Of a DNA stretch of 37,875 nt, positions 1,367 through 14,476 are shown in pieces. The first letter of the stretch is position 1; each line of letters opens with the position of its first letter. Origin of the DNA: Candidatus Rokuibacteriota bacterium (GTDB taxonomy: Bacteria; Methylomirabilota; Methylomirabilia; Rokubacteriales; CSP1-6); NCBI GenBank assembly GCA_003220675.1, contig QHTD01000056.1, positions 1 to 37,875 of the forward strand, read 5' to 3'. A program made the position numbers and the translations under genes. A model generated the notes under the pieces. That model did not search any database and had not been told where the DNA came from. It was given only the letters and a program-made list of their open reading frames with translations.

Positions 1367-2245
1367 TCACTTGAGGAACGCGACGATGACCGGGACGACC
1401 TGTTCGGTGGCCTCCTCCATGAGCCAGTGACCGGAGTTCTTCACCACGGTGCCGGACACATTGGTCGCGACCATCTTCGCTTGGTCGATGAGGAACGTGC
1501 CAGAGGCCTTCTCACCAGTAAGGACGAGGAAGGGCATGTTCAGTCTGGTTGCCGAAAATGCTGCGAAGTGCTTGGCGTCCTGCTCGAAGGTCTTGAAATA
1601 CTCGAAGCCCGCCCGCATGCCGTCCGCTCGCGCGTAGGCTGCGGCGTAGATTCGACGATCCGGGTCGGGTACCGACTTGGTCTTGTCGGCGGCGAAGTCA
1701 TTCCAAAAGTGTTCGAAGTAGAGGCGTTCCCGCCCCTTGACCAACGCGAGGGGCGTGGGGCCATAGAAGTGAAAGTGCCAGAGGTCGCGCAGCAGCCAGA
1801 CGTCCTTCCAATTGCCGACACCCGGTAAGAACGCGTCCATCAGGACGACCTTGCTGACCTCCGCGGGATACTGTGCCGCGTATGCATACGCCACCATCAG
1901 ACCGATGTCGTGCCCAACCACCTGCACCTGTTCATAGCCGAGCTGATGCACGAGACCTCGAATGTCCTTTGCCAGCGTCTTCTTGTCGTACCCATCCTGC
2001 GTGCGTTCAGAGCCTCCTGCGCCGCGCAGGTCGGGAGCGATCACGGTGTGGGACATCGCAAGCAAGGGCATCAGCGGCGTCCACATGTGGCTCGTCTGGG
2101 CGTAGCCGTGGATCAGGACGACCACCGACCCGCGGCCCCCGATCTTGTAGTTGATTCTCACCCCGTTCACGTTGGCGCTCTTTTCGGTGAACCCCTTGGG
2201 CAGGCGAGCGGCCAGCGCGATCTTGCCTGTGAGTTTCTTTGGCAT
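1367..2245 (-). CDS. alpha/beta hydrolase (epoxide hydrolase/haloacetate dehalogenase-like)
   Basis: Starts MPKKLTGKIALAARLPKGF; HGYAQTSHMW oxyanion region, GHDIGLMVAYAYA nucleophile elbow with Asp, C-terminal GHWLMEE. Confidence 0.85.
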   Translation of the reverse strand: MPKKLTGKIALAARLPKGFTEKSANVNGVRINYKIGGRGSVVVLIHGYAQTSHMWTPLMPLLAMSHTVIAPDLRGAGGSERTQDGYDKKTLAKDIRGLVHQLGYEQVQVVGHDIGLMVAYAYAAQYPAEVSKVVLMDAFLPGVGNWKDVWLLRDLWHFHFYGPTPLALVKGRERLYFEHFWNDFAADKTKSVPDPDRRIYAAAYARADGMRAGFEYFKTFEQDAKHFAAFSATRLNMPFLVLTGEKASGTFLIDQAKMVATNVSGTVVKNSGHWLMEEATEQVVPVIVAFLK

Positions 2246-5342: not shown

Positions 5343-6496
5343 GCGGCGCCGACGGGCATCGCCTGCCGGAGCTTCCGCACGAGCGGCTCCACGCACTCGA
5401 TCACGTAGTCGATGTCTTCTGCCGTCGTCGAACGGCCGAGCGAGCAGCGCACGGCGCCCATCGCCCAGTCGAGCGGGACACCCATCGCCACGAGCACGTG
5501 CGACGGCTCGATGTTGCCCGCGGTGCATGCCGAGCCGGCCGACACGCCGATGCCCTTGAGATCGAGCCCGAGGACGATGGATTCCGACTCGACGTGTCGG
5601 ACGAGGAAGCTCGCCGTGCCGGGCAGCCGCTGGGTCGGGTGGCCGGAGAGCCGCACCTCGGGCACGCGCGCGCAGACGCCGTCGATCAGGCGGTCCCGCA
5701 GTGCGGTGACGCGCTCGGCCTCCGCGTGCATGTCACGCGCCCGCACCTCCACCGCCTTGCCGAGGCCGACGATTCCGGGCACGTTCTCCGTGCCCGCGCG
5801 CCGCCTCCGCTCGTGCTCGCCGCCGTGCTGGATCGCGACCATGCGGGTGCCCTTGCGGATCCAGAGAGCGGCGACGCCCTTGGGTCCATAGATCTTGTGG
5901 CCCGAGAAGGACAGCACATCGACCCCGAAGGCGTCGAGGTCGAGAGGGACCTTGCCGAGGGTCTGGACGGCGTCGACGTGGAGCGGGATCCCGTGCTCGC
6001 GCGCGATGCGGCCGATCGCCGCGATCGGCTGGATCGTCCCCACCTCGCTGTTGGCGTGCATGATGCTGATCGCGATCGTGTCGGGCCGGATGGCGCGGCG
6101 GACGTCATCGGGATTCACCATCCCATGCTCGTCGACTCCGACGTAGGCGACGTCGAATCCCTGCGCCTCGAGCGCCTGGCACGTCCGGAGCACGGCGTGG
6201 TGCTCGACCTTCGACGTGATGAGGTGGCCTTTGCCGCGCGCGGCCGCGAGCCCCTTCACCGCGAAGTTGTCCGACTCCGTCCCGCCCGAGGTGAACACGA
6301 TCTCCTGGGGCGAGACGCGGAGGAAGCGCGCCACCCGTTCCCGGGCGCGGTCGACGCCGTCCCGTGCCTCGCGTCCGAAGGCGTGGATGCTCGAGGGGTT
6401 GCCGAAGATCTCCGAGAAATACGGGAGCATCTCAGCGACGACCTCGGGATGGATCGGGGTCGAGGCGTTGTGATCGAGGTACACGTGGCGGCTCAT
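5339..6496 (-). CDS. cysteine desulfurase (IscS/NifS family), second copy
   Basis: YLDHNASTPIHPEVV; FSGHKIYGPKG (PLP Lys); SAGSACTAGNIEPSHV (catalytic Cys loop); alternative ATG at 6511. Confidence 0.92.
   Translation of the reverse strand: MSRHVYLDHNASTPIHPEVVAEMLPYFSEIFGNPSSIHAFGREARDGVDRARERVARFLRVSPQEIVFTSGGTESDNFAVKGLAAARGKGHLITSKVEHHAVLRTCQALEAQGFDVAYVGVDEHGMVNPDDVRRAIRPDTIAISIMHANSEVGTIQPIAAIGRIAREHGIPLHVDAVQTLGKVPLDLDAFGVDVLSFSGHKIYGPKGVAALWIRKGTRMVAIQHGGEHERRRRAGTENVPGIVGLGKAVEVRARDMHAEAERVTALRDRLIDGVCARVPEVRLSGHPTQRLPGTASFLVRHVESESIVLGLDLKGIGVSAGSACTAGNIEPSHVLVAMGVPLDWAMGAVRCSLGRSTTAEDIDYVIECVEPLVRKLRQAMPVGAA

Positions 6497-8175: not shown

Positions 8176-8179
<4 letters not shown>
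7826..8179 (-). CDS. fdx: [2Fe-2S] ferredoxin of the ISC system
   Basis: HNCGGKCACTTCHVIV cluster motif; position in isc operon. Confidence 0.93.
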
Positions 8180-9988
<1,809 letters not shown>

Positions 9989-10011
<23 letters not shown>

Positions 10012-10579
10012 AGCCTTCCTGGCTCTCCCCGAGGGCGTCGTTCAGGTCGTCGATCACCGTGCGGAGGTACGCGCGGATCGCCAGCGCCTCCTTCATGGCA
10101 GCGAGCACGCGCTGCCGCTCCGCCGGCTGGGAGGCGTCCCACCCCTGACTGAGAGGCCCGACGAGCCGGGTCTCCTCGTCCCCCAACCGCGCCATCAGGC
10201 GGTCACGCTGGACGACGAGCGCGGCGCGGCCGGCCTCGTCGAGGCCGCCCGCCTTGGCCTCCGCGAGCGCCTCCTGGATCTCGAACATCTCCTCTAGCAG
10301 CTCGGGCGGGGCCTTGGGCTTGACCGTGGCGCCCTCCTTCGTGTCGCGGCCCTCCTCGAGGCGCACGAGGTACTCGATGCGCGCGATCGGGTCCCGGAGG
10401 GTTCGGTAGGCAGCGTTCAGCCCCGCCGACGCCTCGAGCGCCCGCACCTGCTCCTCGGGCGGCGCCGCCTGGTGGAAGTCCGGGTGGTACCGCCGCGACA
10501 GCTCGTAGAACTTCCGCTGCAACTCCGCCGTATCGACGGCGAGCCGCCGCGGAAGTCCGAAGACCTCGAAGTGGTCCAT
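9989..10579 (-). CDS. hscB: J-domain co-chaperone HscB
   Basis: HPDFHQAAPPEE (HPD motif), C-terminal HscB helical domain. Confidence 0.92.
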
Positions 10580-10661: not shown

Positions 10662-10991
10662 CTACGCCGAGAACGACGTGCCGCATCCACAACTCGACTT
10701 CGCGCTGGGATTCAGGAACGTGAACCCCCCTGTCAGCCCCTGCTGCACATAGTCGAGCGTCGTGCCGTTGAGGTACAGGTAGCTCTTCTTGTCCACAACG
10801 ACCCTGATGCCGTCGATCTCGAACTCTTTGTCGTGCGTCCCGATCTCGCTGTCGAACTCCAGCGAATACGAGAGTCCCGAGCACCCCCCGCCCTTCACGC
10901 CCATCCTCAGGAAGACGTTCTCCGGCAGGTTCTGGGCTCGCTTGAGCTCTCTGACCTGCTTGGCCGCCGCCTCGGTCAACTCGACCGCCAT
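10662..10991 (-). CDS. iscA: HesB/IscA-type Fe-S assembly protein
   Basis: GGGCSGLSY and SSCGCGTSF motifs. Confidence 0.93.
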   Translation of the reverse strand: MAVELTEAAAKQVRELKRAQNLPENVFLRMGVKGGGCSGLSYSLEFDSEIGTHDKEFEIDGIRVVVDKKSYLYLNGTTLDYVQQGLTGGFTFLNPSAKSSCGCGTSFSA

Positions 10992-11013: not shown

Positions 11014-11427
11014 TCACGTGGTGGACGCCGCGGCGGCGCCCGCCTTCAGCCACTTCTCTTTGCAGTCCGCCAGCGCCGCCTTGATCGCGTCCTCGGCGAG
11101 CACCGAGCAGTGGATCTTGACGGGCGGCAGCTTCAGCTCATTCACGATGTCGGTGTTCTTGATCTTGGCCGCCTCATCGACCGTCTTGCCCTTCAGCCAC
11201 TCGGTGGCCAGGCTCGACGACGCGATCGCGCTGCCACACCCGAACGTCTTGAACTTCGCGTCCTCGATGACTCCGGTCTGGAGGTCCACCTTGATCTGCA
11301 GCTTCATCACGTCGCCGCACTCGGGCGCGCCGACGAGGCCCGTGCCCACGCCCGGCGTGTCCTTCGGGAAGGACCCGACGTTGCGTGGGTTGTTGTAGTG
11401 ATCGACGACCTTCTCGCTGTACGCCAT
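11014..11427 (-). CDS. iscU: Fe-S cluster scaffold IscU
   Basis: 137 aa MAYSEKVVDHYNNPRNVGSF...GAPECGDVMKL...FGCGSAIASSS...LPPVKIHCSVLAEDAI; all three Cys and LPPVK present. Confidence 0.96.
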   Translation of the reverse strand: MAYSEKVVDHYNNPRNVGSFPKDTPGVGTGLVGAPECGDVMKLQIKVDLQTGVIEDAKFKTFGCGSAIASSSLATEWLKGKTVDEAAKIKNTDIVNELKLPPVKIHCSVLAEDAIKAALADCKEKWLKAGAAAASTT

Positions 11428-11441
11428 GATCCGATCCCCCC

Positions 11442-12668
11442 TTACTCGGCCTTCCACCGGATGGACTTCAGGTCCACGCCTTCTTTCGCCAGCTCGTAGA
11501 GCGGCGACATCTCCCGGAGCCGCTTCACCACCTGGATCGTCCGCCCGGCCACGAACTCCACCTCCTCCTCGGTGTTGAACCGGTGGAGGCTGAACCGGAT
11601 CGACGAGTGGGCGAGCTCCGAGCTCGCGCCGAGCGCCGCGATCACGTACGAGGGCTCGAGGGTGGCCGACGTGCACGCCGAGCCCGACGACAGCGCGGTC
11701 TCCTTGTTGAGCCCCATCAGGACCGACTCGCCCTCCACATAGGCGAAGGAGATGTTCAGGTTGTGCGGCAACCGCCGCTCGGGATCGCCGTTGAGGTACG
11801 CCTCGTCGACGCTTCCGAGAATCGAATCCTGTAGATGGTCGCGGAGCTTCCCCAGCCGCGCGCTCTCCGCCGGCATGACCTCCTCGCAGATCTCCGCCGC
11901 CCGCCCGAAGCCCACGATGAGCGGCACCGGCAGGGTCCCCGAGCGCATGCCGCGCTCGTGCCCGCCACCGTCGATCATGGGCGCGAGCCGCACGCGCGGC
12001 CCCTTGCGCCGCACGTAGAGCGCGCCCACACCCTTGGGGCCGTAGATCAGATGCGCCGTGCACGAGAGGAGGTCGATGCCCATTGTCTCCGCGTTCACAG
12101 GGATCTTGCCGACCGCCTGGGTGGCGTCCGTGTGGAAGATGATCCCCTTCTCTTTCGCGAGCTTCCCGATCGCGGCGATGTCCTGGATCGTGCCGATCTC
12201 GTTGTTCGCGAACATGACCGAGATGAGGATCGTCTTGTCCGTGATCGCCTTCTTCACGTCGTCCACGTCCACGAGGCCGTTCGGCTGCACCGGGACGGAC
12301 GTCACCTCGCACCCCTGCCGCTCGAGCCGCTTGCAGGTGTCGAGCCCCGCGCGCTGCTCGATCGCCGTCGTGACGATGTGGTGACCCTTCTCGCGGTACA
12401 TCTCGGCGACGCCTTTCAGCGCCAGGTTGATCGCCTCGGTGCCACCCGAGGTGAACACGACCTCCTTGGGGTCGCGCGCGCCGATGAGGCGCGCGATCTT
12501 CGCCCGCGCGGCGTCGACGGCGCCCTCGGCCTCCCACCCGAAGGGATGGTTCCGGCTCGCGGGATGACCGAACCTCTCGGTGAAGTAGGGCAGCATCGCC
12601 TCGACGACTCGCGGGTCGCACGGTGTCGTCGACTGCGCATCCATGAAGATCGGGAACTTCACGGCCAT
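11442..12668 (-). CDS. iscS: cysteine desulfurase IscS
   Basis: MAVKFPIFMDAQSTTPCDPRVVEAMLPYFTERFGHPASRNH; SSGSACTSATLEPSYV catalytic Cys loop. Confidence 0.95.
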   Translation of the reverse strand: MAVKFPIFMDAQSTTPCDPRVVEAMLPYFTERFGHPASRNHPFGWEAEGAVDAARAKIARLIGARDPKEVVFTSGGTEAINLALKGVAEMYREKGHHIVTTAIEQRAGLDTCKRLERQGCEVTSVPVQPNGLVDVDDVKKAITDKTILISVMFANNEIGTIQDIAAIGKLAKEKGIIFHTDATQAVGKIPVNAETMGIDLLSCTAHLIYGPKGVGALYVRRKGPRVRLAPMIDGGGHERGMRSGTLPVPLIVGFGRAAEICEEVMPAESARLGKLRDHLQDSILGSVDEAYLNGDPERRLPHNLNISFAYVEGESVLMGLNKETALSSGSACTSATLEPSYVIAALGASSELAHSSIRFSLHRFNTEEEVEFVAGRTIQVVKRLREMSPLYELAKEGVDLKSIRWKAE

Positions 12669-12688: not shown

Positions 12689-13120
12689 TCAGGCCCGGAT
12701 CGACAAGAGCTTCGGGACGTCGTCGTTCGTCAGCTCCGCCAGGCTCATCGTGTCCAGCATCTGGGTGATCGCCGCCTGGAGCTTCTGGACCGGCCGGCGC
12801 AGATTGCATCGCGGCTCTTGTGGACAACCGCCATGGTCCAGACAGCTCACAATGTTGATGGGCCCCTCCAGTGCCCGGATCACCTCGCCCACCGTGATCT
12901 CGCTCGGGTGGCGCGAGAGCACGTAGCCGCCCTTCGGGCCGTTATGGCTCGCGATCAGCCGCCGCTTCGCGAGACGCTGGAGGATCTTGGCGAGGAGCTC
13001 CGGCGGAATGCCAAACTCCTCGGCGATCCGTTTGGCGCTCACTGCACCGACGTCTTCCTGAACGGCGATATAATGAATCGCCATCAAGCCGTAGTCGGCG
13101 CGCTTGGTGAAACGGAGCAT
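12689..13120 (-). CDS. iscR: Rrf2-family [2Fe-2S] regulator IscR
   Basis: MLRFTKRADYGLMAIHYIA; C-x5-C-x5-C (SCLDHGGCPQEPRCNLR). Confidence 0.93.
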   Translation of the reverse strand: MLRFTKRADYGLMAIHYIAVQEDVGAVSAKRIAEEFGIPPELLAKILQRLAKRRLIASHNGPKGGYVLSRHPSEITVGEVIRALEGPINIVSCLDHGGCPQEPRCNLRRPVQKLQAAITQMLDTMSLAELTNDDVPKLLSIRA

Positions 13121-13141: not shown

Positions 13142-13173
13142 GCGACTTTATCGGTCGGCGACTCTTTCAGTCG
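13142..13173 (-). promoter_or_regulatory. Two adjacent 16-bp IscR type-1-like operators
   Basis: Minus strand CGACTGAAAGAGTCGC|CGACCGATAAAGTCGC (13/16 identical); matches the GACY-N5-AGTC core of type-1 IscR sites. Confidence 0.65.
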
Positions 13174-13174
13174 T

Positions 13175-13202
13175 ACTTTACATCAGCCAGGGGGTCTGTC
13201 AA
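13175..13202 (-). promoter_or_regulatory. sigma70-like iscR promoter
   Basis: Minus strand TTGACA (13197-13202), 16-bp spacer, TAAAGT (13175-13180). Confidence 0.65.
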
Positions 13203-13207
13203 GCGAA

Positions 13208-14476
13208 ATGGCCGAGATGACGGACACATCCGAGTTCGACTCCCACCTTTTCCGGACCGCCCTCGTCCAGCTCGACCGGGTAGCCGCCCGACTCAATCTG
13301 GACCCCAACATCCACGAGAGGCTCCGTCACCCCCGACGAGCGCTCGTGGTATCGGTCCCGGTCCGCATGGACAGCAAGGATATCAAGGTGTTCCGTGGGT
13401 ATCGCGTCCAGCACAGCACGGTGCTGGGGCCCACGAAGGGGGGCCTCCGGTATGACGCCGACGTCAACCTGGGCGAGGTAACAGCTCTGGCGATGCTCAT
13501 GAGCTGGAAGTGTGCCCTGGTCGGTCTACCGTACGGGGGCGCCAAGGGAGGCGTGCGGTGCAACCCGCGGGCAATGTCGGTGACCGAGCGGGAGCACCTC
13601 ACGCGACGCTATACCGCCGAGATCATGCTCGTGATCGGCCCCGATCACGACATCCCGGCGCCGGACCTCGGCACCGATGAGCAGACGATGGCGTGGATGA
13701 TGGACACCTACTCGATGACTCAGGGCAAGACCGTCCCGGGCATCGTCACCGGCAAGCCGCTCATCGTCGGCGGCTCCGCCGGGCGGCGGGAAGCCACGGG
13801 CCGCGGCATCGTCTACGCCCTCTACCAGGCGGCGCGCCACCTTCAACCGCTCCGCGGGCAGCGCGTCATCGTCCAGGGGTTCGGCAACGTCGGCAGCGTC
13901 GCGGCTCGCCTGCTCTGGCGCGAGGGCTGCGTGATCGTCGGGGTGAGCGACGTCAAGGGGGGAATCCTCAACCCGCACGGGATCGACATCCGCCAGCTCG
14001 AGGCTCACGTCGCCGAGACCGGTAGCGTCGTGGGATTCCCCGGCACCGAACCCGTCTCGAACGCTGAACTCCTCGAGCAGCCGTGCGACATTCTGCTGCC
14101 GGCCGCGACCGGCTCCCAGATCCACGCGGACAACGCCGACCGCATCAAGGCAACAATCGTCGTGGAGGGGGCGAACGGGCCGACGACGCCGGAGGCCGAC
14201 GTGATCCTGCGTGACCGCGGGGTGACCGTGATCCCCGACATCCTCGCCAACGCCGGCGGCGTCATCGTCTCGTACTTCGAGTGGGTCCAGGGTCTCCAGT
14301 ACTATTTCTGGCGCGAGAGCGAGATCACGACCCGGCTGCAAGAGATCATGACGCGGGCCTTCAATCGCGTCTGGGCGCTCGCCGCCAAGGAAGGCACCGA
14401 CCTCAGGACGGCCGCGCTCATGGAGGGCGTCCGCCGCGTCGCGGAAGGCTACCGGGTGCGGGGGTTCTACCCCTAG
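13208..14476 (+). CDS. gdhA: Glu/Leu/Phe/Val dehydrogenase (glutamate dehydrogenase)
   Basis: 422 aa; LVGLPYGGAKGGVRCNP; Rossmann VQGFGNVGSVAA. Confidence 0.93.
   Translation: MAEMTDTSEFDSHLFRTALVQLDRVAARLNLDPNIHERLRHPRRALVVSVPVRMDSKDIKVFRGYRVQHSTVLGPTKGGLRYDADVNLGEVTALAMLMSWKCALVGLPYGGAKGGVRCNPRAMSVTEREHLTRRYTAEIMLVIGPDHDIPAPDLGTDEQTMAWMMDTYSMTQGKTVPGIVTGKPLIVGGSAGRREATGRGIVYALYQAARHLQPLRGQRVIVQGFGNVGSVAARLLWREGCVIVGVSDVKGGILNPHGIDIRQLEAHVAETGSVVGFPGTEPVSNAELLEQPCDILLPAATGSQIHADNADRIKATIVVEGANGPTTPEADVILRDRGVTVIPDILANAGGVIVSYFEWVQGLQYYFWRESEITTRLQEIMTRAFNRVWALAAKEGTDLRTAALMEGVRRVAEGYRVRGFYP

Follow-up and report, generated by a model that had tools for sequence, protein, structure and literature searches.

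Control of Fe-S cluster assembly is known mainly from Proteobacteria. The isc operon of a Candidatus Rokuibacteriota genome (assembly GCA_003220675.1) raises the question of why two closely similar inverted repeats stand back to back at the promoter of its first gene, and which protein would bind them. The operon is encoded on contig QHTD01000056.1, the 37,875 nucleotides of which are referred to below as the window.

The window encodes, on the minus strand and in the order rrf2(iscR-like)-iscS-iscU-iscA-hscB-hscA, an Rrf2-family regulator in the operon position of IscR (12689-13120) with the putative NsrR/RisR-like ligands Asp9, Cys93, Cys99 and Cys105, the cysteine desulfurase IscS (11442-12668; NF010611, 601.6 bits, cut-off 548), the scaffold IscU (11014-11424; TIGR01999, 212 bits, cut-off 192), an IscA-like A-type carrier (10662-10991; TIGR00049), the co-chaperone HscB (9989-10579; TIGR00714) and the chaperone HscA (8176-10011; TIGR01991, 735 bits). 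A second NifS/IscS-like cysteine desulfurase, which is 47% identical to the IscS of the operon, is encoded at 5351-6484 on the same strand. Divergently from rrf2, a glutamate dehydrogenase gene (gdhA) is located at about 13208-14476 on the plus strand, a neighbour that is not present in all relatives. Its product matches archaeal/haloarchaeal Gdh models best, with scores under their cut-offs, and no gdhA promoter was recognised in a promoter scan of 400 bp on the plus strand.

Upstream of rrf2, the sigma-70-type promoter TTGACA-N16-TAAAGT (13202-13175, minus strand; 10/12 matches) consists of a -35 hexamer at 13197-13202, identified by promoter scan, and a -10 hexamer at 13175-13180, and is the sole promoter-like site within 400 bp (mean of 0.1 in shuffled sequences). 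Operator unit 1 (CGACTGAAAGAGTCGC; 13158-13173, minus strand) starts 1 bp past the -10 hexamer and is followed 16 bp further 3' by unit 2 (CGACCGATAAAGTCGC; 13142-13157, minus strand). Re-reading of the sequence confirmed that the two units are contiguous and identical at 13 of 16 positions, and that each contains the type-1 core GACY-N5-AGTC, equivalent to GAC-N7-GTC. Transcription is predicted from the promoter spacing to start at 13167-13168 (minus strand), at a purine approximately 7 nt past the -10 hexamer and inside unit 1, which would place the twin site at about -5 to +27. The sequence-only reading had described the sites as lying just 3' of this promoter, covering the transcription start of the regulator's own operon and offset by approximately 1.5 helical turns, all of which agrees with the promoter found, the predicted extent and the 16-bp spacing. 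Read as 25-mers, the units match the published IscR type-1 consensus at 17 and 18 of 25 positions (hand count), and footprinted P. aeruginosa IscR sites match the same consensus at 17 and 19 of 25 (68% and 76%; PMC6599224).

A genome-wide motif scan, proposed in the sequence-only reading, recovered the exact twin pattern once in 4.08 Mb, at the rrf2-isc promoter. A profile of the twin site, the training sequences of which include the site at 13142-13173 itself, scored E=2.5e-8 at this position, and the next best match in the genome had E=0.1. Outside rrf2 promoters, the profile search yielded weak or chance-level matches only, and thus no wider regulon is claimed. The genome also encodes a second Rrf2 protein, on contig C245; its gene has no such site. 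Within the window alone, a loose 16-mer search (three or fewer mismatches) found 3 sites against 3.1 expected, which is not significant, and proof of the twin site therefore rests on comparison.

Conservation of the 16-bp tandem

Orthologues of the rrf2 gene are present throughout the family, and the upstream sequences of 58 of them, 52 of which are distinct and many of which derive from MAGs, were compared. Conservation upstream of orthologous regulator genes, on which the sequence-only reading had staked its claim, was borne out: an alignment-free search identified a GAY-N7-RTC pair exactly 16 bp apart in 55 of the 58 promoters, compared to a mean of 0.005 in shuffled promoters, and every other spacing occurred in at most two. 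In the assemblies of four relatives, neither an rrf2 orthologue nor an intact isc operon is present, and loss of the regulator and loss of the operator are therefore inseparable there.

The promoters align without gaps as TTGACA, spacer, a -10 hexamer with the family consensus NARAMT, 1 bp, CGACTGAAANRGTCGC, CGATNGAAANNGTCGG and then NNATA. The spacer between the -35 and -10 hexamers is 17 bp long in 37/54 orthologues and 16 bp in the window, and alignment columns 6-7, around the predicted transcription start, are mostly purine. Four sets of columns never vary among the 52 distinct promoters: CGA and TCG in unit 1, GA and TC in unit 2. Unit 1 is more similar to unit 1 of other genomes (0.75 identity) than to unit 2 of its own genome (0.63), and the difference between the units is, as judged from this comparison, inherited. 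Unit 2 is less conserved between genomes (0.65 identity) than unit 1, and its left half reads GAT in most relatives, not GAC, which may be because it coincides with the stretch where unit 1 would be expected to have its AT-rich outer flank. On these comparative grounds, 13142-13173 is a real, conserved operator array.

Individual promoters depart from the common layout. One Rokuibacteriota genome (G026) contains a triple array, and at another locus (L020), in the last 22 bp before the rrf2 start codon, unit 2 runs into that codon, so that the operator overlaps the coding sequence. A further genome (G001) contains two rrf2-iscS loci, on contigs C231 and C26; the rrf2 protein and promoter of the C231 copy are identical to those of the window, and the bin may be mixed. 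Promoters without gdhA keep the twin site. For this reason, and because no gdhA promoter was recognised, co-regulation of gdhA as the reason for the twin site was rejected, and its location between iscR and divergent gdhA, which the sequence-only reading had pointed out, is incidental.

A search of named genomes identified 34 more distant loci with regulators 45-56% identical, nearly all from Nitrospirota and one from Terriglobia; as these include many near relatives, the counts that follow are not independent. The gene iscS follows rrf2 in 34/34 loci, and iscU is also seen in most of them within the DNA fetched. The 16-bp pair is present in 27/34 of these promoters and a triple array with 16+16 spacing in 18/34, including that of Ca. 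Nitrospira defluvii (L227; CGACTGATTTGATCGG AGATCATTATAGTCTC CGACTTGAAGGATCGG). No 16-bp pair was found in the promoters of 21 other Rrf2 genes from unrelated genomes. The fixed 16-bp tandem grammar of two or three units spans Rokuibacteriota and the nitrite-oxidizing Nitrospira, both of which are environmentally important. At three Nitrospirales loci (NPIRA; L216, L217 and L218), the triple array is located over and upstream of the -35 hexamer, approximately 108-143 bp before the start codon, and L218 contains a further clear unit downstream of the array, a layout unlike that of other Nitrospira.

The same alignments bear on whether the inverted repeats could instead act in RNA, as two small leader hairpins rather than DNA operators, which we consider hardly credible. 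A stem of 4-5 bp is possible in each unit and the greater part of the two units falls within the predicted leader; however, covariation between paired columns (0.114) is close to that of shuffled columns (0.108), and the outer pair of unit 2 is broken in 14/52 promoters and the inner pair of unit 1 in 12/52. As pair counts resemble those of shuffled columns and some Nitrospirales arrays lie upstream of the -35 hexamer, and hence are not transcribed with the gene, a function as leader hairpins is improbable in the extreme.

The Rrf2 regulator and related systems

The likely regulator of the twin site is the co-encoded Rrf2 protein. The sequence-only reading had named it IscR, a name that suits its position at the head of isc but does not apply in the strict sense. 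The protein scores 80.8 bits against the curated IscR equivalog model (cut-off 207.55), 74.1 bits against PRK10857 (cut-off 275) and 69.5 bits against the curated NsrR model (cut-off 182); it passes the Rrf2 superfamily cut-off only and falls below those of the IscR, NsrR, RirA, CymR and SUF-regulator models, a behaviour shared by the Nitrospirota proteins. In E. coli IscR, the [2Fe-2S] cluster is coordinated by Cys92, Cys98, Cys104 and His107. Whereas His107 is present in IscR of both E. coli and P. aeruginosa, the corresponding position is Arg or Lys in 58/58 orthologues of the regulator described here, and Asp9, Cys93, Cys99 and Cys105 are invariant in the same 58. Furthermore, Ala is found in 58/58 where IscR has Glu43, which contacts DNA bases (PMC9338935, PMC9973013).

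Asp and three Cys are also the ligand pattern of Streptomyces coelicolor NsrR, the [4Fe-4S] cluster of which is held by three Cys and by Asp8 of the other monomer (PMC5411485), and the C-terminal cluster segments of the two proteins are similar in alignment. As these residues are shared, the protein described here could plausibly use these ligands too, and by analogy a [4Fe-4S] rather than a [2Fe-2S] cluster would be plausible as well. Contrastingly, known NsrR regulons concern nitric oxide and have single 23-bp operators, while the protein described here heads isc. Its nearest relatives found are from Nitrospirota and one acidobacterium (Terriglobia), and the phyla Nitrospirota and Acidobacteria are both listed within Rrf2 group IS6 (PMC9973013).

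Binding of a [4Fe-4S] cluster and repression by the holo form would be expected of a RisR/IS6 member. RisR of Myxococcus xanthus belongs to the Rrf2 family but is only distantly related to IscR; it represses isc and suf via GAC-N7-GTC, and its footprint at isc lies over the -10 hexamer and transcription start (PMC9973013). Site anatomy at the rrf2-isc promoter matches RisR sites closely, with the same core in the same position, with sites also at the suf promoters of some relatives, and with three conserved Cys in the regulator (for RisR by published description). The two systems differ in that one palindrome is reported per RisR promoter, compared to the 16-bp tandem, and in that Cys spacing is C-x9-C-x5-C in RisR but mostly C-x5-C-x5-C here.

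The iscR promoters of E. coli and P. aeruginosa likewise contain two GACY-N5-AGTC-type dyads before an isc-heading, autorepressing Rrf2 gene. Their type-1 sites, however, lie side by side with 25 bp between centres (site starts measured on the E. coli promoter sequence, L132, are 25 bp apart), while the units described here are interleaved at 16 bp; the tandem is thus built unlike the IscR operators of these two species. The P. aeruginosa sites at -67 to -43 and -42 to -18 (PMC6599224) also cover a region upstream of the start, whereas the units described here are downstream of the -10 hexamer. No description of an interleaved 16-bp layout in the Rrf2 family was found in the open-access literature searched. 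The 16-bp grammar would operate under a regulator with a ligand set differing from that of IscR. It could serve to test whether proteins of the IscR and RisR types read a common DNA code, and the motif is ready for use in finding the targets of these Rrf2 regulators.

Some Rrf2 relatives have other targets and rrf2 adjoins gdhA in the window, so that the operator might serve another factor, such as an iron or nitrosative regulator, instead of the co-encoded protein. This is quite improbable, as site and rrf2 gene stay together before isc or suf, the core is that of known Rrf2-family sites (IscR type-1, RisR), and the site persists where gdhA is absent.

Proposed autorepression by stacked dimers

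We propose, with a probability of approximately 0.8, that the twin site serves Rrf2 autorepression, with dimers stacked over the transcription start on opposite DNA faces. A holo (Fe-S-loaded) Rrf2 dimer would bind each GAY-N7-RTC dyad, placing two dimers 16 bp (~1.5 turns) apart on nearly opposite faces over -5 to +27, where they would block RNA polymerase. Plentiful clusters would keep isc shut, and a regulator losing its cluster would let it open. We infer that the holo form represses and that both dimers are bound together, cooperatively; at 16-bp spacing, two 25-bp sites overlap by 9 bp.

At slightly under even odds, Rrf2 dimers may furthermore assemble cooperatively into phased stacks, two or three deep, on alternating faces of a 16-bp-periodic array, which would make isc autorepression a steep multi-dimer switch governed by an NsrR/RisR-like cluster. 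If so, this operator architecture of the Rrf2 family, common to Methylomirabilota and Nitrospirota, would be undescribed in the literature searched. The 9-bp overlap, calculated from the 25-bp length of IscR type-1 sites, could also mean that the units are mutually exclusive, with never more than one Rrf2 dimer bound and the second unit raising local occupancy; the lower conservation of unit 2 and the single site at some suf promoters are in keeping with this alternative. We regard it as unlikely, since mutual exclusion would place no demand on phase, yet hardly any spacing other than 16 bp occurs, also where a third unit is present in Nitrospirota and in G026. Stacking on opposite faces is the reading we prefer, and the system could serve to test whether Rrf2 dimers bind interleaved sites and cooperate.

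Sites at suf operons

SUF is absent from 48/57 genomes of the family, including that of the window. In three genomes (G039, G047 and G056), an Rrf2 relative heads an rrf2-iscA-suf operon bearing the site, with both units in G056 and one good unit each in G039 and G047. Since sites are found at suf operons as well, the motif tracks the regulator and its Fe-S targets and not isc alone. In five further genomes, the suf operon has no rrf2 next to it and contains a single type-1-like 25-bp site, for example ATAGGCGACCGATTTGATCGGATAT, and a single suf-type site was also identified in a genome in which no rrf2 orthologue was found (G010), probably due to incompleteness of the assembly. In the SUF-bearing Rokuibacteriota without an adjacent rrf2 (L152-L156), the single type-1-like sites are located upstream of sufB, and the site of L155 (approximately 1576-1600, plus strand) matches the E. 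coli consensus at 20 of 25 positions by hand count.
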